From Candidatus Celaenobacter antarcticus (lineage in GTDB: Bacteria > Cloacimonadota > Cloacimonadia > JGIOTU-2): DNA of 49,780 nucleotides. Below are positions 14,260 to 45,956 of this stretch, piece by piece; the first letter of the stretch is position 1; each line of letters opens with the position of its first letter. The notes beneath the pieces are model-generated. The model was not told the origin of the DNA, searched no databases, and saw nothing but the letters and a program-made list of their open reading frames with translations. The position numbers and the translations under genes were made by a program. Location of the stretch: positions 1 through 49,780 of the forward strand of contig JAVCDK010000038.1 in NCBI GenBank assembly GCA_030765865.1, in the 5' to 3' direction.

Positions 14260-14273
14260 AATTGGGGTAATCA

Positions 14274-19456: not shown

Positions 19457-19457
19457 G

Positions 19458-20830: not shown

Positions 20831-20840
20831 AGGATTTATT

Positions 20841-22783: not shown

Positions 22784-23019
22784 TAATTGTGGTTTCTTTG
22801 TTGATAATCTTAATGCTAATTTCCGCAATTGCAGCACTTATTTATAAGGATTTGATTAGTGCAGTGATTGCTGCTTGTATGGTCAGTTTAATAGCAGCAG
22901 TACTATTCTATTTTCTTCAAGCGCCTGATGTAGCGATGGCTGAAGCATCTATTGGAGCAGCATTGGTCACTGCTATATTTGTTATAGCAATCCGAAGAAC
23001 AAGAAGGCATGAAGAATGA
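22780..23019 (+). CDS. DUF4040/MbhD-like antiporter subunit (complex A)
   Basis: A 79-residue protein with three helices and the DUF4040 motif FYFLQAPDVAMAEASIGAAL. It corresponds to MbhD of membrane-bound hydrogenases and to part of the C-terminal extension of MrpA. It stands alone here, whereas in complex B the same domain is fused to the next one. It overlaps its neighbours by 4 bases on both sides. Confidence 0.9.
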   Translation: MIIVVSLLIILMLISAIAALIYKDLISAVIAACMVSLIAAVLFYFLQAPDVAMAEASIGAALVTAIFVIAIRRTRRHEE

Positions 23020-23699
23020 GAAAAATTATCGGTATTATCTTATTAATTATTATTTGTTGGGGAATTATTTTAGCCCTACATAAAATCCCTTTTGGAATAC
23101 CAAAAACAAAAGTTGGCGAATATTATATAGATAAAGGAAGGGAAGAAACGGGAGCTGCAAATATTGTTACGTCAGTAGTAGTTAATTATCGTGGATTTGA
23201 TACACTGGGCGAAGTTACAATACTTTTTTTGGCAGCAATTGGATTGGGAGCTGTTTTGTCGAACTTCAAGGAAAAAGGAAAAAGGAAAATTGAACTGGCC
23301 AGTTTAATACTGAAAACAGGTTGTCGTTTCTTATTTCCTTTAATACTTCTTTTTGGTGCGTATATTTTTATTCATGGACATCTTACTCCTGGGGGCGGCT
23401 TCCAGGGGGGAGCTATTATTGCGTCCGCTTTCCTTCTCGTTTATCTTGGTTGCCGTGGAAGGATATTCAATGAAGTTGGTTGTAAAATTACTGAATCCCT
23501 AAGCGGTTTGGTTTTTATCGTGATGGGATTAATTGGTTTGACAGTTGGGGGACACTATTTTCTATCCAATTTCATGCTGACAGGTCAGATAAATACTTTA
23601 TTCAGTGCAGGCATAATACCAATAATTTATATCGCAATCGGACTGAAAGTCGGTTCGGAATTGACGGGGGTTATTGATAATTTAATGGAGAAAAGTTAA
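23016..23699 (+). CDS. MbhE-MnhB fused antiporter subunit (complex A)
   Basis: A 227-residue membrane protein made of two modules. Residues about 1-90 hold the MbhE-like segment (GEYYIDKGREETGAANIVTS, then NYRGFDTLGEVTILF). Residues about 95-227 form an MnhB domain (IFIHGHLTPGGGFQGGAIIA). In complex B the junction falls elsewhere: MbhD-MbhE fused and MnhB separate. It is part of the antiporter region that couples redox work to ion movement. Confidence 0.9.
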   Translation: MRKIIGIILLIIICWGIILALHKIPFGIPKTKVGEYYIDKGREETGAANIVTSVVVNYRGFDTLGEVTILFLAAIGLGAVLSNFKEKGKRKIELASLILKTGCRFLFPLILLFGAYIFIHGHLTPGGGFQGGAIIASAFLLVYLGCRGRIFNEVGCKITESLSGLVFIVMGLIGLTVGGHYFLSNFMLTGQINTLFSAGIIPIIYIAIGLKVGSELTGVIDNLMEKS

Positions 23700-24058
23700 T
23701 GGATTTTTTATCTAATTATATTTATTACATTGGTGCTTTCGGACTTATATTTATTGGTCTTTTTATTATACTGGTAAAGCATAACCTGATCAAAGTAATA
23801 ATAGGAATAGGCATTCTTGATACGGGGGTAAATCTATTTATCGTTGCTGTGGGTTATATAAGCAAAGGAACTGCTCCTATATTTTCCAAATCCGGTCTCG
23901 ATGCTAAGAATATGGTTGATCCGGTTCCTCAGGCTTTGGTGCTGACATCTATTGTAATCGGAGTTGCGATATTAGCTCTTGCTCTTTCTTTAGCAATAAG
24001 ATTATATCAGCATTACGGAACACTTGATCTTCGTAAGATAAAGGAGCAAAGATGGTAA
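23699..24058 (+). CDS. mnhC: Mrp-type antiporter subunit C, NuoK-like (complex A)
   Basis: A 119-residue three-helix protein homologous to NuoK, with GIGILDTGVNLFIVAVGY and the C-terminal DPVPQALVLTSIVIGVA. Its start overlaps the preceding stop by one base and its end overlaps mnhD by 7 bases. Confidence 0.93.
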   Translation: MDFLSNYIYYIGAFGLIFIGLFIILVKHNLIKVIIGIGILDTGVNLFIVAVGYISKGTAPIFSKSGLDAKNMVDPVPQALVLTSIVIGVAILALALSLAIRLYQHYGTLDLRKIKEQRW

Positions 24059-25521
24059 ATCCTGTTCTGTTAATTGTTGTACCGCTTGTACTTGCTTTTG
24101 CATTACCCTTGGTGGGTTTGATCTCAAAAAAGAATATCAAATATATTCCGGTTCTTGCTTTTCTTTTTAATTTTGTTATTTCATTACTATTAATACCTAA
24201 AGTTCTGCATCAAGCCATCATTGTAAAAATCGGTGGTTTTCTTCCTCCCTTTGGGATCAATCTGTTCGTAGGACCTGTTGGCATTTTATTTTCTACTTTG
24301 ATTGCATTAGCGGGATTATTAGTTTCCATTTACGCTTTATCATATATTAAAGAGGGTTCGAAAGAAAAATACCATATCCTTTATCTTCTACTATTAACCG
24401 GAGCAACAGGTGTAGTTCTTACAGGAGATATGTTTAATCTTTTTGTTTTTTTTGAAATTCTCTGCATTTCATCTTATGCCCTTGTGGCCTATCTCGGGAA
24501 CAAAGCGGGAATTGAATCTTCAATAAAATATCTTATTCAGGGTTCGGTTGGTTCCAGTCTCCTTTTGTTGGGTATAGGTTTACTTTACGGACAATTAGGT
24601 ACTCTTAATATGGCAGACATTGCTAACCAAATTCATTCTTCAAGTTCACCATCGATATTTGTTCCAATGGTACTTATGATAACAGGTTTAGGAGTTGAAG
24701 CAGCAATATTTCCACTTAATGCCTGGCTGCCTGATGCACACTCTTCTGCTCCTTCATCCATTAGTGCGATTCTTTCCGGTATTGCTATTGAAGTGGGGCT
24801 TTATGCTGTAATTAGAATTATATTCACAATATTTAATGCATCAAGTTTCTTGATGTTTTTCATTTTCTTAGGTGTATTAACACTTCTAATCGGTGAGATG
24901 TCTGCATTCAGTCAGAAGAATATAAAAAGAATGCTGGCTTATTCAAGTATTGGCCAAATTGGTTTAATCATGTTTGCAGTTTCGCTTAATACACAATACG
25001 GAGTAAGTGCCGGACTTTTCCAGATGATAAGTCATACTCTCGGCAAAGGGTTATTGTTTTTGGCAGCAGGATATATGATCTATCGCAGCGGTTCTATGGA
25101 TATTTCTTCTTTTGAAGGTATAGGTAAAAAAATGCCTTATACATCATTGGCTTTTACAATTGGTACTTTTTCTATTATAGGATTACCGCCGTTTATTGGA
25201 TTCGCAAGTAAATTTATGGTTATAAAAGCGGCTCTTGCAAAAGAAGGGATAATATTTACCGTTCTTATAGGACTTGCTCTTATAGGAACTATTATTGAAA
25301 GTGCGTATTTTTTCAGAGTTGTGCAGGTGATTTATTTTAAGAAAGGAAATGGAAATCAGGTAAGGAAAGAAGCTCCTATCACTGGATTAATTCCAATGTT
25401 TATATTTGCACTCTTGATAATATTTATCGGAGTTTATCCAAATTTTATAATCAAGATTTTAAATTCAGCGGCTTCAGAGCTTCTTAATCGAATAGACTAC
25501 ATAAGGAGTGTTTTAGGATGA
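24052..25521 (+). CDS. mnhD: Mrp-type antiporter subunit D, NuoN/L-like (complex A)
   Basis: A 489-residue protein with about 14 hydrophobic helices and the proton-conducting subunit signature (FPLNAWLPDAHSSAPSSISA, about 222-241), together with the GEMSAFSQKNIKRMLAYSS segment. One of two antiporter-like channel subunits in complex A. Adjacent genes overlap by 4-7 bases. Confidence 0.93.
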   Translation: MVNPVLLIVVPLVLAFALPLVGLISKKNIKYIPVLAFLFNFVISLLLIPKVLHQAIIVKIGGFLPPFGINLFVGPVGILFSTLIALAGLLVSIYALSYIKEGSKEKYHILYLLLLTGATGVVLTGDMFNLFVFFEILCISSYALVAYLGNKAGIESSIKYLIQGSVGSSLLLLGIGLLYGQLGTLNMADIANQIHSSSSPSIFVPMVLMITGLGVEAAIFPLNAWLPDAHSSAPSSISAILSGIAIEVGLYAVIRIIFTIFNASSFLMFFIFLGVLTLLIGEMSAFSQKNIKRMLAYSSIGQIGLIMFAVSLNTQYGVSAGLFQMISHTLGKGLLFLAAGYMIYRSGSMDISSFEGIGKKMPYTSLAFTIGTFSIIGLPPFIGFASKFMVIKAALAKEGIIFTVLIGLALIGTIIESAYFFRVVQVIYFKKGNGNQVRKEAPITGLIPMFIFALLIIFIGVYPNFIIKILNSAASELLNRIDYIRSVLG

Positions 25522-27377
25522 CTTTGGAACTTTTACTTATAGTTGCTTTTGGCGGTGCATTTCTTACATATTTTTTAGGCAAGATTTCCTCTAGTCTTAG
25601 GAATGGTTTTGCAGTACTCAATGCATTAGCATTAGTGGTTATGACTGCTTTTTTATACGGTCAAACTGTGGAGAAAAATCTCCATTTCGGATTTTTAGGT
25701 ATGCCATTTGTCCTGAGAATAAATATGCTCTCATGGTTCTTTGCTATTACAATTGTTGGTATTGGTCTATTATCAATTATTTATTCTCTTAAATATATAG
25801 AAAATGGGAAAAAGTTGGATTTTTATTATTTTACGACATTACTTATTAATGCCAGTATGTTGGGAACTGTAATTTGTGGTGATTTAATATCATTTTATAT
25901 GTTCTGGGAGATAATGAGTTGGAGCACTTATCTGTTAATAAGTTACAAGGGGGGGGACAAGGCACTTTTTGCTGGAATAAAATATATAATTATGTCAATT
26001 ATTGGATCACTTGCGATGCTTGTTGGTATTATTAGTTTATATACTCATTTTGGGACTCTGGAGATATCAACCTTAGCTATCCAGATACAAGGTGCTTCCC
26101 TAAATTATATTCTCTTCATTTTAATTATGTTCTCTACGGCTTTTATAATTATTAATGCGTTTTGGCCCCTCCATATCTGGCTTCCTGATGCACATGCAGA
26201 AGCTGTATCCCCATTTTCATCAATACTTTCTGCGGTATTAGTAAGAAAAGGTATGTATGGACTCTATCTGTTTATGTATGTTATATTGGGATTAAATATT
26301 CTGAATAGATTAAAATTCGGTTTCATAAGTTTTACTGGAGTATTTTGCTGGATAGGAGCTATTACCATAGTATTTGCAGCATTAACTGCTTTATTACAAA
26401 ATGATTCTAAGAGAATTCTTGCATGGAGTACTGTCGGACAAGGTGGTTATATGATTTTAGGGGTTGCTTTTGTAACTCCTTTGGGAATGGCAGGTGGTAC
26501 ATTTCATATTCTAAATCACTGTATTTATATAGCCTTACTTTTTTTTGTCGCTGGAGCCATTGAATACCGAACCGGAGGTATTAGAGACTTAAATTCACTT
26601 GGTGGTTTGATTAAAAAGATGCCTGTAACTTTTATAGGAGGTTTAGTCGGCATATTTGGTTTAATTGGCTTGCCGTTGACTAATGGTTTCGTTTCAAAAT
26701 GGTTAATATATAAAACATTAATACTTGGAAATCGTCCATTTTTAGCTTTCGCTGCATTTCTGGGTACATGGGGTACTGTTTTATATGGATACAAATTTAT
26801 TCATAATATATTTTTAGGACAGTTACCCGAAAAGTATAAAAATATTAAAGAAGTTCCTTTTACGATGCGAATACCAATAATTATATTAACAATATTGGTT
26901 TTTTTATTTGGCATACTTCCTGGTATTCCTCTAAAAGTAATTAATGCTATTGGTATTTCTTTAGGTTTTGAATCATTAGATGTTACATTATGGGGGATTG
27001 CTTCAGAAACTGGTACATTGAATACTATAAATATTTTTGCTGCAATACTAATCGTTGGAATAATCATTTGGTTAATTTTTAAAGCAGGTAGAAAAGCTCC
27101 CAAAGTTGACCAATATGATAATTATGCTGCTGGTTCAGCTATCCCCAAAAATAAATATAACTACACAGTTGATTATTATTATCCCTTTACTAAAATGATT
27201 TCTCCTTACCTCAAGGATATTTTTGATCTATTTTACACGAAGATTGCAAACACAGTACAGAAACTCTGCAATAGCACAAGAAAAATTTACACTGGATATG
27301 TTGGTAGTTATGTAATGTATATCGTTCTGTTTTTGGCTATACTGATTTTAGTACAATTAAAATGGGGTGTATTCTAA
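25518..27377 (+). CDS. Second antiporter-like subunit, NuoL/MbhH-like (complex A)
   Basis: A 619-residue polytopic protein with PLHIWLPDAHAEAVSPFSSI and ALLQNDSKRILAWSTVGQGG. A C-terminal extension of about 120 residues ends in a further helix (VMYIVLFLAILILVQL). It is homologous to NuoL/NuoM and MbhH and should conduct ions next to the NuoH-like subunit. It overlaps mnhD by 4 bases and the NuoH-like gene by one base. Confidence 0.92.
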   Translation: MTLELLLIVAFGGAFLTYFLGKISSSLRNGFAVLNALALVVMTAFLYGQTVEKNLHFGFLGMPFVLRINMLSWFFAITIVGIGLLSIIYSLKYIENGKKLDFYYFTTLLINASMLGTVICGDLISFYMFWEIMSWSTYLLISYKGGDKALFAGIKYIIMSIIGSLAMLVGIISLYTHFGTLEISTLAIQIQGASLNYILFILIMFSTAFIIINAFWPLHIWLPDAHAEAVSPFSSILSAVLVRKGMYGLYLFMYVILGLNILNRLKFGFISFTGVFCWIGAITIVFAALTALLQNDSKRILAWSTVGQGGYMILGVAFVTPLGMAGGTFHILNHCIYIALLFFVAGAIEYRTGGIRDLNSLGGLIKKMPVTFIGGLVGIFGLIGLPLTNGFVSKWLIYKTLILGNRPFLAFAAFLGTWGTVLYGYKFIHNIFLGQLPEKYKNIKEVPFTMRIPIIILTILVFLFGILPGIPLKVINAIGISLGFESLDVTLWGIASETGTLNTINIFAAILIVGIIIWLIFKAGRKAPKVDQYDNYAAGSAIPKNKYNYTVDYYYPFTKMISPYLKDIFDLFYTKIANTVQKLCNSTRKIYTGYVGSYVMYIVLFLAILILVQLKWGVF

Positions 27378-28312
27378 TGCAAATTTCGGAATTTATTCTA
27401 TCACCACTTTTAGCTTTGATTATTGGTATATTCTTTTTAGGTTTAGCAAGAAAGATAATGGCAAGAATACATTGGCGTTATGGTCCTCCCATTACTCAAC
27501 CAGTTATAGATATTATCAGGATGTTCAGTCAAAAAGCAATAAGTCATGGATCAATATTCAATTTTGGATTAATTTTTTCGTTAACAGGATCTATTGTTGT
27601 CATCTTATTTCTTCCAATCGGGAAAATGTGTCCATTAAGTTCTGGGGGTTTATTGGTAATATTGTATCTTATGCTTTTAGCTCCTTTAGGAATAGCACTA
27701 AGCAGTGGTGAAGCAGCTAATCCTAATTCCAGTATCGGAGTATCAAGAAAATTTCTTCTGGCTCTGGGATATGAGGTTCCGTTTCTGCTTATTCTTCTTG
27801 CAGTTATGGCACATTATCATACTATTTCATTAATTGAAATAGTGAGAATACAAGCAAATACAGGATGGTCTTTTGGTTCTTTACCTTTGGTATTATCTGG
27901 GATTGCTTATTTTTTGATACTTCCAGCTATATTAGGTATGAGACCTTTTGAAATTTCGGGCGCAGCTCAGGAAATTTCTTCAGGTCCAAAGGTAGAATTT
28001 GGCGGAAAATTTTTAGCTTTTTCTACAATACAACATGCCTTACATGAATTTATTGGTATTTCGCTTTTTGTAAATCTATTTCTTGGAGGTTGGGATTTGT
28101 TTGGGATTTTAGAACCCATCTCAAATACAATATGGGGTATTATTTTGGGGATAATCATTTTCTTAATAAAAATGGTAATAATATTTATTATAGAACTTTT
28201 TATAAATGCAGTGTTTCCCCGCTTCAGAATTGAGCAAGCAATGAAATATTTATGGAAATGGCCTACATTATTATCTTTTATCGGGCTTCTTATAGTAGTT
28301 TTATTTAATTAA
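27377..28312 (+). CDS. NuoH/EchB/MbhM-like membrane subunit (complex A)
   Basis: A 311-residue protein with about eight helices that anchors the hydrophilic arm. MARIHWRYGPPITQPVIDI and GMRPFEISGAAQEISSGPKV match the quinone/coupling-site loops of this family. The ATG at 27377 was preferred over 27362 because the family starts at MQISEF and GGGGTG lies 8 bases upstream. It overlaps the previous stop by one base. Confidence 0.92.
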   Translation: MQISEFILSPLLALIIGIFFLGLARKIMARIHWRYGPPITQPVIDIIRMFSQKAISHGSIFNFGLIFSLTGSIVVILFLPIGKMCPLSSGGLLVILYLMLLAPLGIALSSGEAANPNSSIGVSRKFLLALGYEVPFLLILLAVMAHYHTISLIEIVRIQANTGWSFGSLPLVLSGIAYFLILPAILGMRPFEISGAAQEISSGPKVEFGGKFLAFSTIQHALHEFIGISLFVNLFLGGWDLFGILEPISNTIWGIILGIIIFLIKMVIIFIIELFINAVFPRFRIEQAMKYLWKWPTLLSFIGLLIVVLFN

Positions 28313-28330
28313 CAATTAAAGGTAATTTAT

Positions 28331-28888
28331 ATGGATAGAAATAAAATTAGTAAATGGTTGAAAAATCCCGGTAAAATGGCACACAAATATTCATTTCATG
28401 TTGTATATTTTTGTACGGGATGTGGAATTATTGAAATCCCACCTTCTATCACTGCAAGATGGGATGCAGAACGATTTGGTATAATACCCGTAGCTACACC
28501 CAGACAGGCAAACCTGTTTTTAATTACAGGATATGTTTCAACAAAAACATTAAAAGCAATCATAAGAACTTACGAGCAAATGCCTGACCCTAAATATACG
28601 GTTGCATTAGGTTCCTGTCCCATAAATGGTGGAATGTACTATGATTCCTATAATACTATCACAAGCTTGGATAAGTACATTCCTGTAGATGGTTATATCG
28701 CAGGCTGTATGCCACGCCCGGAAGCAATATTTATTGGAGTTACTCATTTATGGAAGTTGATCGATATGGATAAAGCTGACGGATATAAAAGATACAGAGA
28801 AGATTATGTGCATTACCGTGCAAACCAGGAACAACTTTTTGGTGAGTTGGAATGGCCTCCATTATTCATAAAGGAAATAGTAAAATGA
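28331..28888 (+). CDS. NuoB/MbhJ-like small subunit with 4Fe-4S cluster (complex A)
   Basis: A 185-residue subunit carrying the proximal cluster, with cysteines C28 and C31 (FCTGCGIIEI), C96 (GSCPINGG) and C126 (AGCMPRPE). The residues NGGMYYDSYN resemble complex I and group 4 hydrogenase small subunits. All cluster ligands are present, so electron transfer to the large-subunit interface should be intact even though the large subunit has no [NiFe] site. It overlaps the next gene by 4 bases (ATGA). Confidence 0.92.
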   Translation: MDRNKISKWLKNPGKMAHKYSFHVVYFCTGCGIIEIPPSITARWDAERFGIIPVATPRQANLFLITGYVSTKTLKAIIRTYEQMPDPKYTVALGSCPINGGMYYDSYNTITSLDKYIPVDGYIAGCMPRPEAIFIGVTHLWKLIDMDKADGYKRYREDYVHYRANQEQLFGELEWPPLFIKEIVK

Positions 28889-29406
28889 CTGATTTAAAGC
28901 AAATGCTTTTATCCGGGTTTGACGATATTAATATCAATATTCCTGAAGATAACAGAATGGTTGTAAGTACAAAAAAAGAAAGTGTATTATCAATATTAAT
29001 CTATCTGAAAAAATTTGGATATAACCATTTTGCACTTGTTTCTTGTAATGATTGGATTGATGATAACGAGTTTGAATTAATCTATATAGTTTCTGCTTAT
29101 CAAAAAAATGACGAACAATATCAAGATATTGAAAAAAGTAGTATCATAGTAAAAACAAGAATTTCCCGAGAAAAGGCAAAGTTTATAACAATCATAGATA
29201 TTTTTGAAAATGCAGAACCTTATGAACGAGAAATCCATGAAATGTTCGGAATAAATTTTGAAGGACATCCACGATTAACACCGCTAATGCTTGAAAGAAA
29301 TTACAAGATTCCCCCTTTCAGAAAAGATTTTGATACAAATAAATATGTAGAAAACACTTTTGGAAAAATTCCTTCTATTAAAGAAAGGAAAGAAGGAAAT
29401 AAATGA
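28885..29406 (+). CDS. NuoC/MbhK-like subunit (complex A)
   Basis: A 173-residue 30-kDa-subunit homologue with the diagnostic NAEPYEREIHEMFGINFEGHP in the C-terminal half. It starts at 28885 (AAGGAAA upstream); a longer frame from 28852 lies inside the preceding gene and was rejected. It overlaps the large-subunit gene by 4 bases. Confidence 0.9.
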   Translation: MTDLKQMLLSGFDDININIPEDNRMVVSTKKESVLSILIYLKKFGYNHFALVSCNDWIDDNEFELIYIVSAYQKNDEQYQDIEKSSIIVKTRISREKAKFITIIDIFENAEPYEREIHEMFGINFEGHPRLTPLMLERNYKIPPFRKDFDTNKYVENTFGKIPSIKERKEGNK

Positions 29407-30503
29407 GAGAACTTGAATTATATTTTGGACCTCAGCATCTCGGAATGGTGGGGAACTTTAGCATAACACTCAAAGTGGAAGGTGATAGAATAATAAAAGC
29501 AAGTGCGAACCCGGGATATTTACACCGTGGATTTGAAAAACTGATGGAACAGAGAACCTGGATACAAAACTTCCCATTAGTATGCCGAATAAATGTTGTG
29601 GAACCTGATCACATGGAATTGATTTATTCCATGGGTGTGGAAAAATTGGCAGGGATTGAAGTTCCGAAAAAAGGTAAATATATCAGAAGTATCTACTGTG
29701 AGATGGCTCGAGTTGCATCACATTTATTTGGAGCATGGGCTTATGCTAATATGCTTGGCTTTGACACTGTTGCGAATTGGGCAATGTATCATAGGGATCT
29801 TCTGCTGGATATGTTCGAAGAACTTACCGGTGCAAGAGTTTATCATATTTACATACGTCCCGGTGGAGTAAGACGGGATTTTCCAGATGGATTTACTGAT
29901 AGATTAGTAAAAACATTACACAAAATCGGCGGGAAAGTACCAGATTATAATGCTCTTTTTTTTGAAAATAGATTGTTTAAAGAAAGAGCAGAAGGAATCG
30001 GAGTTGTTACACGTGAAGAAGCAATTCGTATGGGTGCTGTAGGGCATACCATAAAAGCAATTGGAATGGAGTATGACATTAGAAAAATAGAGCCCTACGC
30101 TGCATATGATCAGGTGGATTTTAATATTCCAACCAGAACTGGCGGAGATGCTTATTCTCGGCTTTTAGCAATCCGAGATGATATGATCGAAAGTGTTCAT
30201 ATGATATTCAAGCTTATAGATAAAATGCCCACTAATGGTGAGGTTTGTACTAAAACCCCAAATCCGTTCAAATGGAAAGTACCAGCCGGAGAAGCTTATG
30301 TAAGATGTGAATCATCCCGTGGTGAATTGGGACTTTACATGGTGAGTAATGGGGGAGATAAACCTTATAGAGTTCATTTTAATACACCATCGTATAATCA
30401 CGGTCTTACGGTTTTGGAAAAAGCGCTTGAAGGTGAAAGCATTGCTGATGTAGGCAATATTATGATTAGTTTGTATGTAGTACCTCCAGAAATAGATCGA
30501 TAA
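29403..30503 (+). CDS. NuoD/MbhL-like large subunit lacking [NiFe] ligands (complex A)
   Basis: A 366-residue homologue of the 49-kDa subunit of complex I and of hydrogenase large subunits (YFGPQHLGMVGNFSI, GYLHRGFEKLMEQRTW). Where hydrogenases have RICGIC it has LVCRINVV (about 59-66). The protein ends YVVPPEIDR with no DPCxxC. All but one of the [NiFe] cysteine positions are therefore lost (C61 aligns only roughly), so it cannot be an active hydrogenase. The pocket presumably serves another acceptor, as in complex I, Fpo or the Mbx/Mbs enzymes. Confidence 0.93.
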   Translation: MRELELYFGPQHLGMVGNFSITLKVEGDRIIKASANPGYLHRGFEKLMEQRTWIQNFPLVCRINVVEPDHMELIYSMGVEKLAGIEVPKKGKYIRSIYCEMARVASHLFGAWAYANMLGFDTVANWAMYHRDLLLDMFEELTGARVYHIYIRPGGVRRDFPDGFTDRLVKTLHKIGGKVPDYNALFFENRLFKERAEGIGVVTREEAIRMGAVGHTIKAIGMEYDIRKIEPYAAYDQVDFNIPTRTGGDAYSRLLAIRDDMIESVHMIFKLIDKMPTNGEVCTKTPNPFKWKVPAGEAYVRCESSRGELGLYMVSNGGDKPYRVHFNTPSYNHGLTVLEKALEGESIADVGNIMISLYVVPPEIDR

Positions 30504-30522
30504 TAAAAAAATGGAATGATAT

Positions 30523-32382
30523 ATGAATAAGACAAATTTTTTAAATCCTTTTAAGGCAATAAAATATCTTTTTGAAAAACCAAAAACACTAAGATACCCG
30601 TTTGAAACAAAAGAGATTGCTGACAGATATAGAGGATTTCATAAAAATGACTGGGATAAATGTACCGGATGCGGAAATTGCGCTGATATATGTCCTAATA
30701 AAGCTATCATTATGGTTAAAATTGATGAACTGATAGCAAAACCGGAAGAAGGCATGAAAGATGAAAGGCCTCAATTAGATTATGGAAGGTGCTGTTTCTG
30801 TGGTTTGTGCGTTGATATTTGTCCACCCGGATCCCTATCTCTCACTAAAGATTTTTTTCATATTCATTTTGATACAGATACTTTTAAATTTATTCCAAAA
30901 GATGAAAAAAATAATAAAGAAATTTTTAAATCTGAGGATGATTATTCCATTTTTAATGCAAGCCTTTCTCACCGAAAAGAGAATTATGGAGGATTCTCCC
31001 CTGATATACGTTATGCTTTGTTTGAACCTGATAGAATAGAAATGCCTGAGATAGAACCTGATGAGCGTAAATTATCTTTTATTGAGCAGGTGATTGGATA
31101 TGATAAAGATCAGGCCAGAGAAGAAGCAGGGCGATGTTTGGAATGTAAACTTTGTGAAGAAGCTTGTCCTGCTCATCTTAAAATATCAGATTATATTGAT
31201 GCAATATATCGCGAAGAACCAAAAGAATCACTTGAGAAAATATTTGAGGATAATCCAATTCCTTCAATCTGCGGAAGAATATGTATGGCACATTGTGAAG
31301 ATGCCTGTTCATTACATATAAGAGGAGATTCACTTGCTATCAGATGGATTAAAAGATATGCTGCTGATACTATTAAAAATTTCAAAGAAGAACTTGAGAT
31401 ACATCCAGGCAAACCTACAGGAAAGAAAATTGGTATCATAGGTGCCGGTCCAAGTGGCTTGTCATTGGCATACTTTCTACGGCTTCAAGGTCATGAAGTT
31501 GTTGTTTATGATGAATTAACTGGTGGCGGGGGAGCAATCAGAATAGGTCCACCAGCATATAGACTTCCTCTTGAGGCAATTGATAAAGATGTTAATTATA
31601 TAAAATCTTTGGGAGTTGAGTTTAATTTTAATACTAAAGTAGGAAGAGATGTAAAATTTGAAGATATATTTAAGAGTAATGATGCTGTCTTCATTGGAAT
31701 TGGAAACACAATAAGTTTTTCTACAAGAGTTCCAAATTCAGATAAATGCATATTTGCTCTTGATTTTCTAAAAGATAATAAAATTGGCGAAATGAGGAAA
31801 GTTGATAAAAATGTTATAGTCATTGGTGGTGGAAATGTAGCAATGGATGTGGCAAGAGAAACTACAAGACTTCAGCATATTCAATATCCAGGACAAGAAG
31901 TAGTAACTAAAACAGTCTCATTAGAAGATTGGGATGAATTGCCGGCTACGGATTTGGAAATAAAAGAAGCAAAAGAAGAAGGTATTAAATTTAATCCAGC
32001 TTGGGGTCCAAAAGAAGTTGTACTTGATGATAAAGGAAACATTTCTGGACTTTTATGTAAGAAAGTGAAGTCAGTGTTTGACGAAGATGGAAAATTTTCT
32101 CCTACTTTTTACGAAGAAAAGGAAAAATTTTTAGAAGGTGGTATGATAATCGAAGCAATTGGGCAAAGACCTGATTTTTCATTTCTTCCTGATGAACTGA
32201 ATAAAAAACTGGAATTCACAGAAAGAAGGAAAGTAAAAGTAGATGAAAATGGGATGACAACTATCCCCAAAATCTTTGCCGGAGGCGATATAGTTAACAT
32301 TAATTTAGATGCAGTTACAGCAATTGCAGATGCAAAAATCGCCGCAGAGGGCATAAATAAATATTTTAACAAAAATCAATAA
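30523..32382 (+). CDS. NuoI-type ferredoxin fused to GltD/NfnB-type NADPH oxidoreductase (complex A)
   Basis: A 619-residue three-part protein. Residues 1 to about 125 are a NuoI/MbhN-like ferredoxin subunit with two 4Fe-4S sites (C47/50/53/57 and C90 or 91/93/96/100); its start FKAIKYLFEKPKTLRYPF aligns with the complex B ferredoxin at 42391. Residues about 180-290 are the GltD-type cysteine domain (C205/208/211/215 and C250/254/258/262). The remainder binds FAD (GAGPSG, 306-311) and NADPH (GGGNVA, 435-440), ending GDIVNINLDAVTAIADAK. The fusion would wire an NADPH-reactive flavin directly to the membrane arm. Confidence 0.92.
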   Translation: MNKTNFLNPFKAIKYLFEKPKTLRYPFETKEIADRYRGFHKNDWDKCTGCGNCADICPNKAIIMVKIDELIAKPEEGMKDERPQLDYGRCCFCGLCVDICPPGSLSLTKDFFHIHFDTDTFKFIPKDEKNNKEIFKSEDDYSIFNASLSHRKENYGGFSPDIRYALFEPDRIEMPEIEPDERKLSFIEQVIGYDKDQAREEAGRCLECKLCEEACPAHLKISDYIDAIYREEPKESLEKIFEDNPIPSICGRICMAHCEDACSLHIRGDSLAIRWIKRYAADTIKNFKEELEIHPGKPTGKKIGIIGAGPSGLSLAYFLRLQGHEVVVYDELTGGGGAIRIGPPAYRLPLEAIDKDVNYIKSLGVEFNFNTKVGRDVKFEDIFKSNDAVFIGIGNTISFSTRVPNSDKCIFALDFLKDNKIGEMRKVDKNVIVIGGGNVAMDVARETTRLQHIQYPGQEVVTKTVSLEDWDELPATDLEIKEAKEEGIKFNPAWGPKEVVLDDKGNISGLLCKKVKSVFDEDGKFSPTFYEEKEKFLEGGMIIEAIGQRPDFSFLPDELNKKLEFTERRKVKVDENGMTTIPKIFAGGDIVNINLDAVTAIADAKIAAEGINKYFNKNQ

Positions 32383-32952: not shown

Positions 32953-33459
32953 ATGAAAAGATTATTTGTAGATATACCTAAGCTTCTAAAAGAAGAAAGT
33001 CTCGAATGCATTGATTGTGAATATCTGTATCACGAAGGGGCTAATCGCGGTGTATTTTCTATTGTAGAAATCGCAGAATTCGGTGCTTATTGCCGCCAGT
33101 GCAAGGAATCTTTCTGCATCGAAGCGTGCCCCAATGACGCACTTGAGCATAGCAAGACCAACATGATATTGCGTCATAATATGCGCTGCGTTGGTTGTAA
33201 AAGCTGTATACTTGCATGCCCTTTTGGTACGATCTTTCCAGAGGTTATTAACTATATTTCTCAAAAATGTGATTTCTGTTTAAATCAATTGGAAATTGAT
33301 CCAAACTATGTTCCGCTTTGTGTAAAAACTGCACCAAATGAGACTTTGAAAATGGTCGATATAGATAAAGATGATCCTGAAAATAATATTTATCTTGTCG
33401 GCAGCAGAATGGCAGTAAAGACACATCATTGGCGCAACAAAGTCGGGAAAAATAAATAG
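32953..33459 (+). CDS. HycB/CooF-like polyferredoxin (complex B)
   Basis: A 168-residue cytoplasmic ferredoxin. Two complete sites are visible, C47/50/55/59 and C79/82/85/89, plus further cysteines C19, C22, C106, C109 and C123 that could ligate additional clusters, as in CooF/HydN/HycB proteins. It is the first gene of the hydrogenase operon and its likely electron donor or acceptor. GAAGGA lies upstream of the ATG. Base composition (45% G+C in a 60-base sample) differs sharply from the preceding CBS gene (30%). Confidence 0.88.
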   Translation: MKRLFVDIPKLLKEESLECIDCEYLYHEGANRGVFSIVEIAEFGAYCRQCKESFCIEACPNDALEHSKTNMILRHNMRCVGCKSCILACPFGTIFPEVINYISQKCDFCLNQLEIDPNYVPLCVKTAPNETLKMVDIDKDDPENNIYLVGSRMAVKTHHWRNKVGKNK

Positions 33460-33487
33460 TGTAGGATGGCAAGGTTCAGGAGATAAT

Positions 33488-34417
33488 ATGCTAAAATATT
33501 TGTTCTATTTGCTCGTGTTCCCGGGTTTTCTGTTTGCATCTGTATTCGGTCTTATCGTAGGATGGATAGAGAGAAAGGTCAGCGCACGAGTACAATTCCG
33601 TGTTGGTCCTCCATTTTTTCAGAATTTTTATGATGTATTCAAGCTGTGGGGAAAAGAGATCATTCTTATAAGGAGTACACCCTATTTCATATTTGTCATT
33701 GCACCGATCATTGCCTTTGCAACAGTAGTTATGACCTCTACGATCGTGGGTGTGGCTTTTTTCTACCGAGTCGGCATCGGGGGAGATCTGATTTTCATAG
33801 TATATCTCATGGTCATATACTCCGTCGCGCTGATACTTGGAGCATCCTCGACCGGTAATGTATATTGCAGCATCGGCGCCGGAAGAGAAATGAAAATGCT
33901 CATTGCCGACGAACTGGCTTTCATACTGGTTATTTTTGTCCCGATCATTCGGGCAGGATATAAGATCGATCTTACACAAATTTTGGCATATCAAAGCGAC
34001 AATGGCATGATCGTTGGAACTGCATCAGGTATTATTGCATTCATTGTCGGGATACTCTGCCTTCAAGCGAAAATGGGTATGGTGCCCTTTGATATTGCGG
34101 AAGCAGAAACTGAAATTGTCGGAGGTCCGCTCATGGAGTATTCCGGTCCATTGCTTGCATTCTGGAAACTGGCGCATTATATGATGTATGTTTTTCTGCC
34201 AATGCTACTTGTGATCCTTTTCTGTGGCGGCATGAGCTTTGCATCCTTTGGCACGATCATGGCAGGGATAGGAAAGTATCTACTTATTGTTGTGCTTATG
34301 ATACTGATAAGAAATACAAATCCCCGTGTGCGTATTGATTCTGCAATTAATTTCTTCTGGAAATGGGCAAGCCCCCTTGCTCTTATCGCCGTAATTCTGG
34401 CAATCATAGGAGTGTAA
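33488..34417 (+). CDS. [NiFe] hydrogenase membrane anchor, NuoH/EchB-like (complex B)
   Basis: A 309-residue protein with about eight helices. GWIERKVSARVQFRVGPP and MGMVPFDIAEAETEIVGGP are the conserved cytoplasmic loops of NuoH/EchB/MbhM. It anchors the hydrogenase arm and probably forms the entrance of the ion path. AGGAGA precedes the ATG, and the small-subunit gene follows after 3 bases. Confidence 0.94.
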   Translation: MLKYLFYLLVFPGFLFASVFGLIVGWIERKVSARVQFRVGPPFFQNFYDVFKLWGKEIILIRSTPYFIFVIAPIIAFATVVMTSTIVGVAFFYRVGIGGDLIFIVYLMVIYSVALILGASSTGNVYCSIGAGREMKMLIADELAFILVIFVPIIRAGYKIDLTQILAYQSDNGMIVGTASGIIAFIVGILCLQAKMGMVPFDIAEAETEIVGGPLMEYSGPLLAFWKLAHYMMYVFLPMLLVILFCGGMSFASFGTIMAGIGKYLLIVVLMILIRNTNPRVRIDSAINFFWKWASPLALIAVILAIIGV

Positions 34418-34420
34418 ATT

Positions 34421-34840
34421 ATGGCTTTTTATAATAAAATTATTAAGAAATCAATCTGGGTTTTCCATGTAAGTGCAAGCCCTTGTAACAACTGCGATAT
34501 AGAAATTCTCGATCTGATCACACCCGGATATGATGTGGAGCGCTTCGGTATCAAACTGGTCGGCTCAGTCCGGCATGCTGATGTACTTCTTGTGACTGGC
34601 ATAGTATCTTATAAAGTTGCACCCCGTATCAAACAGTTGTACGAACAAGCTGCCAAACCTATTTTTGTAATCGGTATCGGGACGTGCACAGCAGGTGGCG
34701 CAACCTTCAAAACAAGTTATAATAAAGCAGGAGTCCCACTTGATAAAGTTATTCCTGTAAATGCCTATGTGACGGGATGCCCTCCCAAACCAGAAGCTAT
34801 GATCGACGGCGTATTAAAATTGTTAGGAACATTAAAATGA
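34421..34840 (+). CDS. [NiFe] hydrogenase small subunit, EchC/MbhJ-like (complex B)
   Basis: A 139-residue subunit carrying the proximal 4Fe-4S cluster, with ligands C22 and C25 (SPCNNCDIE), C89 (GTCTAGG) and C120 (TGCPPKPE). Its short length is typical for group 4 enzymes, which have a single cluster here. Stop and next start overlap (ATGA). Confidence 0.94.
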   Translation: MAFYNKIIKKSIWVFHVSASPCNNCDIEILDLITPGYDVERFGIKLVGSVRHADVLLVTGIVSYKVAPRIKQLYEQAAKPIFVIGIGTCTAGGATFKTSYNKAGVPLDKVIPVNAYVTGCPPKPEAMIDGVLKLLGTLK

Positions 34841-35286
34841 GCGATAAAGGCACAGAATTTTTTGAAAAATTTCAAGATAAAATAACGAGAGTTATTAAGA
34901 AGCCAAGAAGAAATTATTTCAATGTAAAGAACGAGGACATTTGGGAGATTGCAGATTATCTCTTCAATACAATGGGCTGCCGCCTCTCTGTCTGCACTGC
35001 TACTGAGGTGTATGACGGGCTCGAAGTTCTTTACCATTTCTCTGATGATACAACTGGAATTTATTATAATCCACGTGTGAAAACCAGTCTTGAAAATCCT
35101 GAAATAAATTCAATAACACCACTGATCGAAGGTGCAAACTGGATCGAAAGAGAAATGTACGATCTTTTTGGTATTAAGTTCAAAGGACATCCCGATTTGA
35201 AAAAATTGCTGACCATCAACAATCCGCATTTTAGTGAGGATGACCATCCAATGCGTTTTAATCGCAACAGAACAAAAGAGAAGTAA
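34837..35286 (+). CDS. [NiFe] hydrogenase NuoC/EchD-like subunit (complex B)
   Basis: A 149-residue homologue of the 30-kDa complex I subunit, with the signature GANWIEREMYDLFGIKFKGH. The start at 34837 overlaps the previous stop; a longer frame back to 34777 lies within the small-subunit gene and was rejected. It assembles between the small and large subunits. Confidence 0.9.
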   Translation: MSDKGTEFFEKFQDKITRVIKKPRRNYFNVKNEDIWEIADYLFNTMGCRLSVCTATEVYDGLEVLYHFSDDTTGIYYNPRVKTSLENPEINSITPLIEGANWIEREMYDLFGIKFKGHPDLKKLLTINNPHFSEDDHPMRFNRNRTKEK

Positions 35287-35310
35287 CAGGTTTATGCAGA
35301 GGAGCATGTA

Positions 35311-36528
35311 ATGAGTAAATGCAGAATTCCTTTAGGTCCTTTTCATCCTTTGTTGGAAGAAGCGGAATTCTTTGATATAAAAGTCGAAGGTGAAAAAGTC
35401 GTTGATATTGAGATGGAAACCGGTTGGATGCATAGAGGTCATGAGAAAATCTCGGAAACCAAGTCATATACGCAGTCAATCTTCTTGGTGGAGCGTATTT
35501 GCGGGATTTGTTCGACTTCGCATCCCTTTGCCGCAACCCATGCGATGGAAGATATAGATAATGTAGAAATACCTGAACGGGCACAATATATACGAATTTT
35601 TATCGGAGAGATGGAAAGAATTCACAGCCATCTTCTCTGGCTCGGTCTTGCGGGACATTTTATAGGATATGACACTCTCTGGATGTGGGCATGGAGATAC
35701 CGCGAACCGGTTCTTCAAATTTTTGAAAAGGTATCGGGCAACAGAAATCATTATGCAATGTTCCGTGTCGGTGGAGTAAGCAGAGATTTCGATAATGCAT
35801 TAATCCCCGAAATTCATCCTACACTCGATATGATTGAAAAGAAAATGCTCATGATCGCCGGTGCCGCTAAAGATGATCCTGTTTTGCGTTCACGCCTTAA
35901 AGGAGTTGGTGTCCTGACAAAAGAAGATGCAATAAATTACTGCGCAACTGGTCCTACTGCCCGTGCATCCGGTGTGGATATTGATGTGCGACGTGATGAC
36001 GGTCTGGAGTATGATCTAATAAATCTTGATGTTATAGTATTGCCTAATGGCGATGTATATGATAAGCTTGTTTTACGTGTACTGGAAATTATTGAATCGG
36101 TAAAAATTGCACGGCAATGTCTTGATGCATTCCCGAAAGTTGGAGGAGAATATCTTAATAAGGTAAAACACATTTCTCCTGGTGAAGGAATAGGACGTTA
36201 TGAAGCTCCTCGCGGTGAAGTGTTTCATTATATTCGCAGTGATGGTTCGAACCGTCCTCTTCGTCATAAAGTGCGTGCTCCCAGTTTTTCAAACATCCCA
36301 ACTTACAAAGCATCCTGTGTAGGCATTCCACTTGCTGACGCACTTATCACTCTTGCTGCTGTCGATCCTTGCTATTGCTGTACAGAGCGCAGTATTCGTG
36401 TTGTCGATAAAAATAACAAAAAATTAGAACATAATCTATTAACCATGTCTCGTGAGAAAACTGCACATATTAAGAAAGTAGTTGCCGGCAGCGAGAAAAC
36501 ACCCATCGATAGAATTTTTGAAGATTAG
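35311..36528 (+). CDS. Group 4 [NiFe] hydrogenase large subunit (complex B)
   Basis: A 405-residue catalytic subunit. All four nickel-iron ligands are present: C64 and C67 in ERICGIC, and C354 and C357 in DPCYCC. A TER follows directly and then about 45 more residues, which would be the C-terminal extension removed by a maturation protease. This identifies complex B as an active H2-evolving or H2-oxidising enzyme of the energy-converting group 4, close to the Mrp-linked Mbh type. GAGGAG precedes the ATG. Confidence 0.96.
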   Translation: MSKCRIPLGPFHPLLEEAEFFDIKVEGEKVVDIEMETGWMHRGHEKISETKSYTQSIFLVERICGICSTSHPFAATHAMEDIDNVEIPERAQYIRIFIGEMERIHSHLLWLGLAGHFIGYDTLWMWAWRYREPVLQIFEKVSGNRNHYAMFRVGGVSRDFDNALIPEIHPTLDMIEKKMLMIAGAAKDDPVLRSRLKGVGVLTKEDAINYCATGPTARASGVDIDVRRDDGLEYDLINLDVIVLPNGDVYDKLVLRVLEIIESVKIARQCLDAFPKVGGEYLNKVKHISPGEGIGRYEAPRGEVFHYIRSDGSNRPLRHKVRAPSFSNIPTYKASCVGIPLADALITLAAVDPCYCCTERSIRVVDKNNKKLEHNLLTMSREKTAHIKKVVAGSEKTPIDRIFED

Positions 36529-36553
36529 GATTTCAAGAAGAAAGGGTACATAA

Positions 36554-38368
36554 ATGTGGAATAATTATCTATTTTTGCTTGTCGTTATCCCGATAATTGC
36601 AACCATTATTAATCTTTTTGTACCAAAGATTATAAAGAAGCTTATCACTCTTGCAGCTGTGATATGGTCGCTCGTGCTGAGCATCAAAGTGTTCAGCGCA
36701 ACTACATTGAGCTTTTCCTTATTTGGCTCAACGATTTTCCAGACTGATACATTATCAAAGTTCATTTTGCTTTTTATAAACATTTTGAGCACGATCATAT
36801 TGATTTACTGTCTTAAAAATGTAAAAAAGGAATATGAAGGAAATTTCTTCTTACTTTTCGCACTGACTGTCAGTTTCTGCAATGGCGTTGCCCTGAGTTC
36901 CAATATGATCGCTTTCCTTATTTTCTGGGGACTTTCCGGTTTGCTTGTGTATCTATTCGGTATTTTGAATGCTCCGAGAAGTGCAGAAAGTTCACGAAAA
37001 GCATTTATCGTCCTTGGAACATCAGACGTGCTTCTTCTTTTTGGTTTGGCTGTCATGTATGTTATGACGCAGAATAGCAATTTATACTTAACGAAAATTG
37101 CATTATCAAATGTTTTAACTTATATTGCATTTTTCTGTTTATTACTTGCCTCATTTGCAAAGGCAGGGGCATTTCCTATGCATACATGGGTGCCCGATTT
37201 TGCCAAGGATGCACCTATCGAAAGTGTCGCACTTCTTCCTGCTGCTTTAGACAAACTTTTAGGTATATATCTTCTTGCACGTATAATGAATTCTTTATTC
37301 GTTTATCCATTTGTGATAAGGGCAATTGTTATGATACTTGGTGCGTTGACCATTATCATTGCCGTTATGATGGCTTTAGTTCAACATAACGGACGGAAAC
37401 TTCTTGGATATCACGCAGTGAGCCAGGTCGGTTACATGGTACTCGGTCTTGGAACAGGCAATCCGATCGGCATAATTGGTGGTTTGTTTCACATGGTAAA
37501 CCATGCAATATATAAATCAAGCTTATTTCTATCATTCGGCTCAGTTGAAAAGAGAACCGGCACTCCCGAACTCGATAAATTAGGGGGGCTTGCAAAGAAA
37601 ATGCCACTCACTTTTGTCGCCGCACTGATTGGGGCACTATCAATTTCTGGCGTTCCGCCATTTAACGGATTCTTTTCAAAATGGATGGTTTACCAGGGAG
37701 TTCTTATTACAGCTTCTCAACAGGGCAAAATATGGCAGATCGTGATGAATGTGTGCTTTGTTCTTGCCATATTCGGAAGTGCATTAACACTTGCAAGTTT
37801 TATTAAATTTCTCCACTCTACCTTCCTTGGCAAATTGCCGAAAAAATATGAAGGCGTGAAGGAGATCAGCTTCAATAACTGGTTTGCAAATCTTTTACTA
37901 GGAGCTCTTTGTCTGATCTTCGGTGTGTTTGTTTTTGCAATTCCTGTAAAATTATTCTTGCTGCCAATAATTGGCGCGGGTACTATTAAAACATTGCTTC
38001 TTGGATTTTACAGTTCAAAGATTATACTTTACTTCTTTGCAGCATCCATACTGCTCGGTCTTATCATCTATATTGTATTTAAGAAGATCAGATTCGATGA
38101 TGAATATGTCGGCACCTATCCTACAACCGACGAGCACAGGGCTACAGGTGTAGAGTTCTACAATGAAGTCTCTTCGATGAAACCATTCGATAAGATCTTC
38201 GAGTGGGCAAATAAGAAATATTTTGATATATATAAATGGGGAACGATGTTTTCCCTATGGCTTGGTGGCGTGTTCCATAAGCTGCATTCGGGTTTATTAC
38301 ACACTTATGCGATTTGGACGCTTGCGGGTTTAGTTGTTGTCACCATAATTTTGTTAAGTGCAATTTAG
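36554..38368 (+). CDS. NuoL/EchA/MbhH-like antiporter subunit (complex B)
   Basis: A 604-residue polytopic protein with KAGAFPMHTWVPDFAKDAPI and MALVQHNGRKLLGYHAVSQV, the two channel-helix signatures of the family. About 14 helices are followed by a C-terminal hydrophilic stretch and one last helix. It is one of two antiporter-like subunits of complex B. Confidence 0.92.
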   Translation: MWNNYLFLLVVIPIIATIINLFVPKIIKKLITLAAVIWSLVLSIKVFSATTLSFSLFGSTIFQTDTLSKFILLFINILSTIILIYCLKNVKKEYEGNFFLLFALTVSFCNGVALSSNMIAFLIFWGLSGLLVYLFGILNAPRSAESSRKAFIVLGTSDVLLLFGLAVMYVMTQNSNLYLTKIALSNVLTYIAFFCLLLASFAKAGAFPMHTWVPDFAKDAPIESVALLPAALDKLLGIYLLARIMNSLFVYPFVIRAIVMILGALTIIIAVMMALVQHNGRKLLGYHAVSQVGYMVLGLGTGNPIGIIGGLFHMVNHAIYKSSLFLSFGSVEKRTGTPELDKLGGLAKKMPLTFVAALIGALSISGVPPFNGFFSKWMVYQGVLITASQQGKIWQIVMNVCFVLAIFGSALTLASFIKFLHSTFLGKLPKKYEGVKEISFNNWFANLLLGALCLIFGVFVFAIPVKLFLLPIIGAGTIKTLLLGFYSSKIILYFFAASILLGLIIYIVFKKIRFDDEYVGTYPTTDEHRATGVEFYNEVSSMKPFDKIFEWANKKYFDIYKWGTMFSLWLGGVFHKLHSGLLHTYAIWTLAGLVVVTIILLSAI

Positions 38369-38384
38369 TTTTAAGGAGGCTTAA

Positions 38385-38924
38385 GTGCCAGTTGATGTTT
38401 GGTTGTACTTTATTTTAGGATTCATGATAGTCGGTTCGATTGCATGTCTGGAGATAAAGAATATACTTTCTTCGATCATTACCATTGGGGTGGTTGGATT
38501 GGGTTTGTCCTTAGCGTTCCTCTTCTTAGGAGCTCCGGACCTTGCTCTTGTTCAGTTCGTGTTTGAAATTCTCTGCATGATCATATTGATCCGTGCATTT
38601 GCAAAACGTTCTATCGAAGTTCGTGCGCTTCGTAGAGATGTGCCGGAAACAATTATTGCAATTGTTATACTTGCAAGCATTTTTGTGCTGAGCATCTTTG
38701 CATTCAAGGATCTGCCCTCATTCGGCAAACCGATCGTACGCGTTGCAGAGCGTTATCTTACACAAGCAGGAGTGGAAACCGGTTCTCAAAATATCGTCAC
38801 CTCCGTTATTCTAAACTATAGAATATATGACACATTAGGTGAGGTTACAGTACTCTTTACCGCAATTTTAGGTGCACTCACTGTATTACGTAAAACAGGG
38901 AGGAAAAAAAGACATGCAGAATAA
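38385..38924 (+). CDS. MbhD-MbhE fused antiporter subunit (complex B)
   Basis: A 179-residue protein combining an N-terminal DUF4040/MbhD domain (FLFLGAPDLALVQFVFEILC) with an MbhE-like C-terminus (ERYLTQAGVETGSQNIVTSV, then NYRIYDTLGEVTVLF). The start is GTG with a strong AAGGAGG. In complex A the same two domains are encoded separately and MbhE is joined to MnhB instead. It overlaps the mnhB gene by 11 bases. Confidence 0.9.
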   Translation: MPVDVWLYFILGFMIVGSIACLEIKNILSSIITIGVVGLGLSLAFLFLGAPDLALVQFVFEILCMIILIRAFAKRSIEVRALRRDVPETIIAIVILASIFVLSIFAFKDLPSFGKPIVRVAERYLTQAGVETGSQNIVTSVILNYRIYDTLGEVTVLFTAILGALTVLRKTGRKKRHAE

Positions 38925-39363
38925 TTTTCCCAATGAAGGTATGTCCGTAATTGTCAAAACAATTACCCGTTTTACTGTGTGGCTGATTTTCCTATATGGT
39001 CTTTATATTGTTATTCATGGTCATCTTTCCCCAGGTGGTGGTTTTGCGGGCGGTGTGATCATTGCACTTTCTTATGTTCACTTGACTCTTGCATATGGTA
39101 AGAATTTTGTGTTAGCCCGAGTAGATAAGTTTGCAATGCACAATTTGGAAGCTCTTGCAGGGATCCTCATCGTGCTCACAGGTATTATCGGCTTATATGT
39201 GACAGGACATTTCCTCGCAAATTTTATGGGAATCGGCGAACTATATACACTTATCAGTGCCGGCTACATCCCTATGCTGAATATCTTTATTTGTGTGAAG
39301 GTCGGCATGGGATTGTATCTCGTGTTCTACTATTTAGCCAGTTTTAAAACGCAGGAAGGATAA
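38914..39363 (+). CDS. mnhB: Mrp-type antiporter subunit B (complex B)
   Basis: A 149-residue four-helix protein with the MnhB signature IVIHGHLSPGGGFAGGVIIA. The start at 38914 has GGGAGG upstream and overlaps the end of the previous gene; a longer frame to 38872 was rejected. Confidence 0.92.
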   Translation: MQNNFPNEGMSVIVKTITRFTVWLIFLYGLYIVIHGHLSPGGGFAGGVIIALSYVHLTLAYGKNFVLARVDKFAMHNLEALAGILIVLTGIIGLYVTGHFLANFMGIGELYTLISAGYIPMLNIFICVKVGMGLYLVFYYLASFKTQEG

Positions 39364-39366
39364 AAT

Positions 39367-39702
39367 ATGATATTATATATAATGTGCTTTTTCCTCTTTT
39401 TGGTCGGTGTGTATGGTACGATCACCAAAAGAGATCTGATTAAGATAATACTTGGAATTGGTATCATGGGTTATTCCGTAAATCTATTCCTCGTGCTGCT
39501 TGCATATCGTACTGGAGCTCTTGCACCGATACTTAAAAAAGGATTCAATGTGACAATGGTTGATCCTATTCCTCAGGCAATGGTGCTTACATCCATCGTT
39601 ATCGAACTTGGAATCACGGCACTCATGGCTGCACTTGCGATCAGGATCTATCAAAAATATGACACCTTTGATATTACGAAGATCAGGAGACTACAAGGAT
39701 GA
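39367..39702 (+). CDS. mnhC: Mrp-type antiporter subunit C, NuoK-like (complex B)
   Basis: A 111-residue three-helix NuoK homologue with LGIGIMGYSVNLFLVLLAY and DPIPQAMVLTSIVIELGI. It lies 3 bases after mnhB and overlaps mnhD by 4 bases. Confidence 0.93.
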   Translation: MILYIMCFFLFLVGVYGTITKRDLIKIILGIGIMGYSVNLFLVLLAYRTGALAPILKKGFNVTMVDPIPQAMVLTSIVIELGITALMAALAIRIYQKYDTFDITKIRRLQG

Positions 39703-45729: not shown

Positions 45730-45731
45730 TA

Positions 45732-45953: not shown

Positions 45954-45956
45954 GTT

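Follow-up and report, generated by a model that had tools for sequence, protein, structure and literature searches.

A gene at 30523-32382 on the forward strand of the DNA analysed here (49,780 nucleotides in all, hereafter the window) raises the question of what becomes of a membrane-bound ion pump when its ferredoxin-docking subunit is joined on one chain to a flavoprotein with a dinucleotide site. The gene closes the operon of complex A, one of two membrane complexes in the window, and a preliminary description of this DNA had read it as a NuoI subunit fused to a GltD/NfnB-type flavoprotein, through which complex A would use or make NADPH directly. We asked whether the fused frame is genuine, to which kind of complex it belongs, which coenzyme it is likely to use and where its electrons may go.

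The fusion gene and its operon

The gene is a single open reading frame of 619 codons, running from an ATG start to a stop. Its N-terminal part is a NuoI/MbsN-type dicluster domain of about residues 1-120 (30523-30882), with cluster cysteines at 47, 50, 53 and 57 and at 90, 93, 96 and 100, and a complete GltD/NfnB-type flavoprotein occupies about residues 165-618. A domain search, proposed in the preliminary description as a check, returned models of both kinds on the one chain. Pfam places a Fer4 dicluster domain at 46-103, Fer4_20 (DPD domain II, 4Fe-4S) at 185-286 (31075-31380; cysteines 205, 208, 211, 215, 250, 254, 258 and 262) and Pyr_redox_2, the FAD/NAD(P) domain, at 302-602 (31426-32328; GAGPSG at 307-312 and GGGNVA at 435-440), and NCBIfam places NuoI models over 3-153 or 12-119 and GltD models over 167-618. 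The best PDB match of the NuoI part is chain N of the Pyrococcus furiosus MBS complex (6u8y_N, 2.6e-29), and the GltD part strongly matches NfnL (5jca_L, 1.7e-66). In addition, residues 11-120 are 36% identical to the stand-alone NuoI of complex B, bearing out the alignment reported for the N-terminal residues, and the reading of the gene as a NuoI subunit fused to a GltD/NfnB-type flavoprotein is confirmed. Scans for promoters and terminators gave a yield no better than chance.

The fusion is spanned from end to end (residues 2-618 against 7-609 of a 611-position model) by NF010590 (PRK13984), an NCBI family labelled 'putative oxidoreductase', and scores 683 bits, which is below the curated cut-off of 946 bits for a model centred on Thermotogota. 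The earlier view that the fusion is undescribed therefore needs amending, as the gene is already catalogued under this family. The entry gives no function, and we found no paper that describes the fusion, although an earlier description in a review is possible.

The fusion is the final gene of a forward-strand run at 20309-32382. Ahead of it lie, in order, an MrpE/MbsA-like subunit (20309-20830), a flavoprotein resembling CoA-disulfide reductase/NSR (20823-22193), MrpF/MbsB-like (22193-22450) and MrpG/MbsC-like (22451-22783) subunits, a 79-aa DUF4040-like ORF at the place of MbsD (22780-23019), MrpB/MbsE-like (23016-23699) and MrpC/MbsG-like (23699-24058) subunits, an MrpD-like antiporter subunit (24052-25521) and a NuoL/M-like antiporter subunit (25518-27377), both of MbsH/H' type, a NuoH/MbsM-like membrane anchor (27362-28312), and NuoB/MbsJ-like (28331-28888), NuoC/MbsK-like (28852-29406) and NuoD/MbsL-like (29403-30503) subunits. 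The Mrp-type subunits were assigned by position and homology in related operons, the 79-aa ORF by homologues at the equivalent place, NuoL by NCBIfam and related operons, NuoH and NuoC by NCBIfam, and NuoB and NuoD by matches to 6u8y_J and 6u8y_L. Two further forward-strand genes, akin to sulfhydrogenase beta/gamma and AsrA/AsrB, stand at the operon head in this lineage only (18434-20285). These AsrA/HydB- and AsrB/HydG-like genes are present in the related locus L038 and missing from most related operons; the gene at 19383 is nearer to AsrB/HydG than to the NfnA family, and the pair is a possible second NAD(P)H module.

The arrangement around the fusion is strict. NuoD lies directly 5' of the fusion, in Mrp-NuoLHBCD operons, in 79 of the 80 related loci with enough upstream DNA. 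A strict gap rule flags seven loci as lacking NuoD; six of these do show NuoD before the fusion, leaving L086 as the sole true exception. No stand-alone NuoI-type ferredoxin-docking subunit was found in complex A, and because the fusion follows NuoD where NuoI would stand, it replaces the NuoI/MbsN subunit. The earlier claim that an FAD/NAD(P) flavoprotein is covalently joined to complex A, at its hydrophilic arm, has thus held up. The same strict tie to NuoD, and an operon devoid of any GltB-like partner, rule out the GltD subunit of glutamate synthase. Related operons vary in other respects. In more distant ones (L041-L047 and L050-L055) MrpD and NuoL appear as a single ORF of about 1,040-1,060 codons, the two being separate in the window, and in a relative at 68% identity (L113, from 11897 onwards) the operon gives way to genes for an HdrA-like protein carrying a FlpD domain and an HdrB-like protein.

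Spread of the fusion and kind of complex

Of 125 genomes searched from the same phylum, many hold full-length relatives of the fusion; four of these relatives are 77-84% identical and the others about 36-47%. A scan of named genomes added some fifty more. Among the named genomes the hosts belong to Cloacimonadota, Sumerlaeota, Fermentibacterota, Bacteroidota, Chlorobiota, Spirochaetota, Bacillota (Halanaerobium), Thermotogota, Alpha- and Gammaproteobacteria, WOR-3, Acidobacteriota, Delongbacteria, Myxococcota and Mycoplasmatota. We aligned 72 relatives from at least a dozen phyla, making 73 rows with the window protein. In Thermotogota the fusion is present in 69 of 101 genomes, 55 of them above the NF010590 cut-off, and one fusion scores 1,215 bits against the model, in a genome that we take to be T. 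maritima MSB8. Only Thermotoga maritima exceeded the cut-off among 14 named control genomes. The earlier suggestion of a wider association, extending to Thermotoga, is therefore borne out. Furthermore, since the fused frame is found as one ORF in dozens of independent assemblies, it is due neither to chance nor to misassembly.

The membrane complex that most resembles complex A is the MBS of P. furiosus (formerly MBX; PDB 6U8Y, PMC7684303), which has thirteen subunits (A, B, C, D, E, G, H, H', J, K, L, M and N), including the antiporter-like H and H'. Its proximal [4Fe-4S] cluster is held, unlike those of complex I and hydrogenases, by three cysteines in a shortened loop; the first cysteine of the loop is a mutable non-ligand, and the quinone residues H38 and Y87 of Nqo4 are missing (PMC7684303). 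The window run, leaving aside the NSR-like gene, also encodes thirteen subunits, contains the whole MBS/MBX set and has two MrpD-like subunits. MBS is the best PDB match for NuoB, NuoD and the NuoI part of the fusion: NuoD matches 6u8y_L with an E-value of 4.8e-102, as against 1.8e-70 for Nqo4 of Thermus thermophilus, and NuoB matches 6u8y_J with 227 bits, as against 124 for the next entry. Across the loop (FCTGCG) NuoB and MbsJ align gaplessly; the loop has the shortened two-cysteine form, and all three cysteine ligands are present. This pattern extends to the related operons, in which every readable NuoB has [CG]TGC in the loop and two further cysteines, the first loop cysteine being glycine in many. 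The point of departure from MBS is the N subunit, which in P. furiosus is a ferredoxin-fed NuoI subunit of 208 aa, whereas in the window NuoI continues into a flavoprotein that has a dinucleotide site. The MBX of T. maritima, a member of NF010590, shares both the operon order and the fusion; it is 43% identical, and the window operon differs from it in having the NSR-like and AsrAB-like genes and in adjoining an Mbh-type hydrogenase.

Given its overall architecture, complex A might be taken for an NAD(P)H:quinone oxidoreductase akin to complex I and fitted with a different input module, the more so as its NuoD exceeds the NuoD cut-off of PRK06075 and some hosts of the fusion are respiring Proteobacteria. 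We consider this very improbable, as equivalents of Nqo4 H38 and Y87 are missing from every readable NuoD of the fusion operons, and NuoB lacks the tandem cysteines of cluster N2 that identify complex I. Complex I was rejected for want of the quinone residues. The window NuoD also has no NiFe cysteines. Judged by these motifs, complex A is a variant of MBS/MBX type and not a quinone complex.

The neighbouring complex B (32953-43002), unlike complex A, retains the NiFe motifs in its large subunit and is followed by hyp genes. The whole region (32953-48049) comprises a group-4 [NiFe] hydrogenase that is Mbh-like and has Mrp subunits, then a protease-like ORF, hypF, hypD and hypE. The same pairing of complexes A and B is seen in two other loci of this family, L037 and L038, and no NuoD other than those of the two complexes was found in the window genome.

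Cofactors and coenzyme of the flavoprotein part

An AlphaFold2 model of the fusion, built from a 52-row alignment, has a mean pLDDT of 90.2 and a pTM of 0.87. Foldseek places NfnL, Xfn, NfnABC, GltD, StnC and DPD on top, NfnL with a TM-score of 0.86 of its own length. All 16 cluster cysteines are invariant in the 73 aligned fusions, as are Lys277 (codon at 31351-31353, within the Fer4_20 domain) and Arg347; in the FAD/NAD(P) domain the glycines, Arg347 and Asp589 are invariant. Electron transfer from a GltD domain to a dicluster ferredoxin domain has a natural precedent in DPD. Both AegA/YgfT and DPD carry a dicluster ferredoxin and GltD on one chain and, unlike the window fusion, are not subunits of an Mrp-type membrane complex.

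Although the GltD part resembles NfnB/NfnL (NADH-dependent ferredoxin:NADP oxidoreductase) in fold and cofactor layout, two of the three features of a bifurcating NfnB fail. The position of the glutamate ligand to the FAD-proximal cluster of NfnB is taken by Lys277, and the YRR motif is replaced by SLE; the arginine near FAD N5 is present (Arg347, corresponding to NfnB R201), and it is also retained in the non-bifurcating StnC. The window operon further differs from Nfn in having no gene whose closest match is the NfnA family. A bifurcating Nfn was rejected on the first two features. StnC of Sporomusa ovata, a fusion of GltD with NuoG, has its Lys170 at the position of Lys277, where it is a cluster ligand needed for activity, and its FAD does not bifurcate (PMC10482914). 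Since Lys277 matches this ligand, the FAD of the fusion is likewise expected not to bifurcate. StnC is also alike in joining GltD to a Nuo-type Fe-S chain and in an extra cysteine, Cys114, which corresponds to Cys250; it differs in having NuoG and not NuoI, no membrane arm, and NADPH as its coenzyme.

Coenzyme choice can be approached through the end of the second strand in the dinucleotide domain. There, the NADP-linked GltD-family proteins that we read (NfnL, StnC and a GltD-like paralogue) have YRR and then M(P/T)A. At the position of this NADP motif (YRRxxxxMPA; 31918-31947) the window fusion has S466-L467-E468, followed by P474-A475, after an insertion of eight residues relative to YRR-type members. 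YRR is present in 24 of the 73 fusion rows, always 17 residues past GGGNxA, and SLE, ALE or CLE (xLE) in the other 49, at 23 or 25 residues; proteobacterial fusions have LAD where the motif has MPA. In a maximum-likelihood tree made without the motif columns (a quick search, root unknown) the YRR/xLE change occurs once, on a branch with an SH-aLRT of 99. All 30 Thermotogota fusions read among the best NF010590 matches are of xLE type, and so is the fusion of T. maritima MBX. Three draft genomes (G053, G054 and G060) have two fusions apiece, and in G054 and G060, where both were read, one is YRR and one xLE.

In Rossmann folds, when both arginines are lost and beta-2 ends in a fixed acidic residue, NADH is indicated over NADPH, although arginine-to-glutamate is a rule of thumb for coenzyme choice and not proof. 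Plant and yeast NADH-GOGAT have glutamate at this place, as do some bacterial GOGAT labelled as NADPH-dependent, so this parallel is not proof either. The window genome supplies an internal control, as its StnC-like paralogue keeps YRR, and the loss of YRR is therefore not a habit of the genome. From its motif, the window protein quite probably prefers NADH. The earlier attribution of FAD and NADPH motifs to the GltD part stands for the cysteine domain, the FAD fold and the NAD(P)-binding GGGNVA, and fails for the NADP-specific arginines; NADPH as substrate of the window protein finds no support, given SLE in place of YRR and a YRR-bearing paralogue in the same genome. The wider proposal that complex A uses or makes NADPH directly can draw on the mostly NADPH-linked habit of the GltD/NfnB family, the GxGxxA-type motif, and the existence of the YRR sister clade, which in some Thermotogota is followed by nfnAB-like genes. 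Nevertheless, with the arginines gone from the window clade, a glutamate fixed at the end of beta-2 and YRR intact in the paralogue, we regard it as distinctly unlikely.

For the YRR type itself NADPH fits, as some of its Thermotogota operons are followed by nfnAB-like genes. These NfnA/NfnB-like genes lie directly 3' of the fusion at L183 (15178-17471), L099 (11848-14100) and L102. A rubrerythrin/ferritin-like gene is found 3' of many xLE-type fusions (L065, L093, L096, L114 and L117), and at L117 three ORFs of similar size follow the fusion in a row.

Proposed electron path and partner

On balance, we lean towards the view that the fusion encodes the NuoI (MbsN) subunit of an MBS/MBX-type pump in which electrons pass from NAD(P)H through FAD and the clusters to sulfane sulfur, coupled to ion movement, the window type working with NADH. 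Fusion to a GltD-type flavoprotein would have turned a ferredoxin-docking subunit into an NAD(P)H dehydrogenase arm. Two electrons would be exchanged between NAD(H) and FAD and would then leave the flavin singly. Their route would cross the lysine-associated [4Fe-4S] cluster next to the FAD, the other GltD cluster and the pair of NuoI clusters before reaching the three-cysteine [4Fe-4S] cluster of NuoB. There, sulfane sulfur (polysulfide) would be reduced or, in reverse, formed from sulfide, and the redox step would be coupled to H+ or Na+ movement through the NuoH/NuoL/Mrp arm as in MBS. The window protein would use NADH and the YRR sister clade NADPH. Published schemes for T. maritima MBX show a ferredoxin-fed sulfur reductase (PMC9431562). 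In our reading these pumps probably run on NAD(P)H and not, as is now assumed, on ferredoxin.

Sulfane sulfur is the most likely partner at the NuoB/NuoD cavity, because the MBS site is conserved, an NSR-like gene lies in the operon and mbxA of T. maritima is induced by sulfur, its expression rising 4.36-fold (PMC9431562). However, T. maritima membranes gave no H2S with NAD(P)H or with reduced ferredoxin (PMC9431562). This counts against the sulfur step, the only relevant published assay being negative. The orphan fusion L086 (9980-11791), on a gammaproteobacterial contig with no complex gene within 10 kb, also counts against our main reading. So does energetics, as NADH and polysulfide are close in potential and little energy would be gained. 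Moreover, sulfur as the partner is argued from likeness to a single archaeal enzyme. For sulfur-oxidising Proteobacteria, running backwards would be sensible, with ion-motive force spent on moving electrons from sulfide to NAD+.

The silence of the T. maritima membranes is also one of the points that would suit a different arrangement, in which complex A is an ion-pumping, Rnf-like ferredoxin:NAD(P)+ oxidoreductase, with reduced ferredoxin entering at the NuoI/GltD arm and the fused flavoprotein reducing NAD(P)+. Such a complex would enjoy a large potential difference, NfnB-type proteins do bind ferredoxin, and an early proposal for the Pyrococcus Mbx, as cited in PMC6349859, was indeed a ferredoxin:NADP+ oxidoreductase. 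However, a path from ferredoxin through NuoI to NAD(P)+ would bypass the coupling site at NuoB, NuoD and NuoH, yet the MBS-type cluster is conserved in all members. Furthermore, the glutamate ligand of the bifurcation type is replaced by lysine, the window genome has an RnfC-like gene (G000:C52), and T. maritima has Rnf (PMC7414866). We therefore consider this arrangement unlikely and retain NAD(P)H as donor and sulfane sulfur as acceptor.

The gene family by name, the MBS complex and the NfnB, StnC, AegA and DPD relatives are already known. This analysis adds the strict tie of the fusion to MBS-type complexes in many phyla, its division into two coenzyme classes, the lysine that never varies, and NADH in place of NADPH as the predicted coenzyme of the window protein. 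By gene structure, electron entry into T. maritima MBX would be through an NAD(P)H flavoprotein, which would alter the energy balance of a model fermenter and is testable. An archaeal-type MBS pump would thus have acquired its own NAD(P)H dehydrogenase, separately from the NuoEFG module of complex I, and one problem would have been solved twice. More tentatively, and with slightly less than even confidence, we suggest a widespread and unrecognised class of MBS-type pumps that are powered by NADH or NADPH, or make either, by way of a fused flavoprotein arm, with two coenzyme classes sometimes in one genome, which would link NAD(P) pools to sulfane sulfur in anaerobes and run in reverse for sulfide oxidation in sulfur-oxidising Proteobacteria and animal symbionts.

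Several other features of the window and its genome were seen. A gene for a sodium-translocating pyrophosphatase (15610-17814, reverse strand) lies beside the two ion-pumping complexes and hints at a sodium economy. A StnB/StnC-like pair lies at a contig end elsewhere in the genome (G000:C24:25963-28780). A caspase-like peptidase ORF (754 aa, TTG start) and, after it, a 331-aa ORF whose start resembles a signal peptide (together 11995-15269) are unrelated to the fusion. Lastly, a tRNA-Leu gene (2146-2233, reverse strand) overlaps the GTG start listed for the tyrosyl-tRNA synthetase ORF at 841-2190, so the true start of this ORF is probably an internal ATG.
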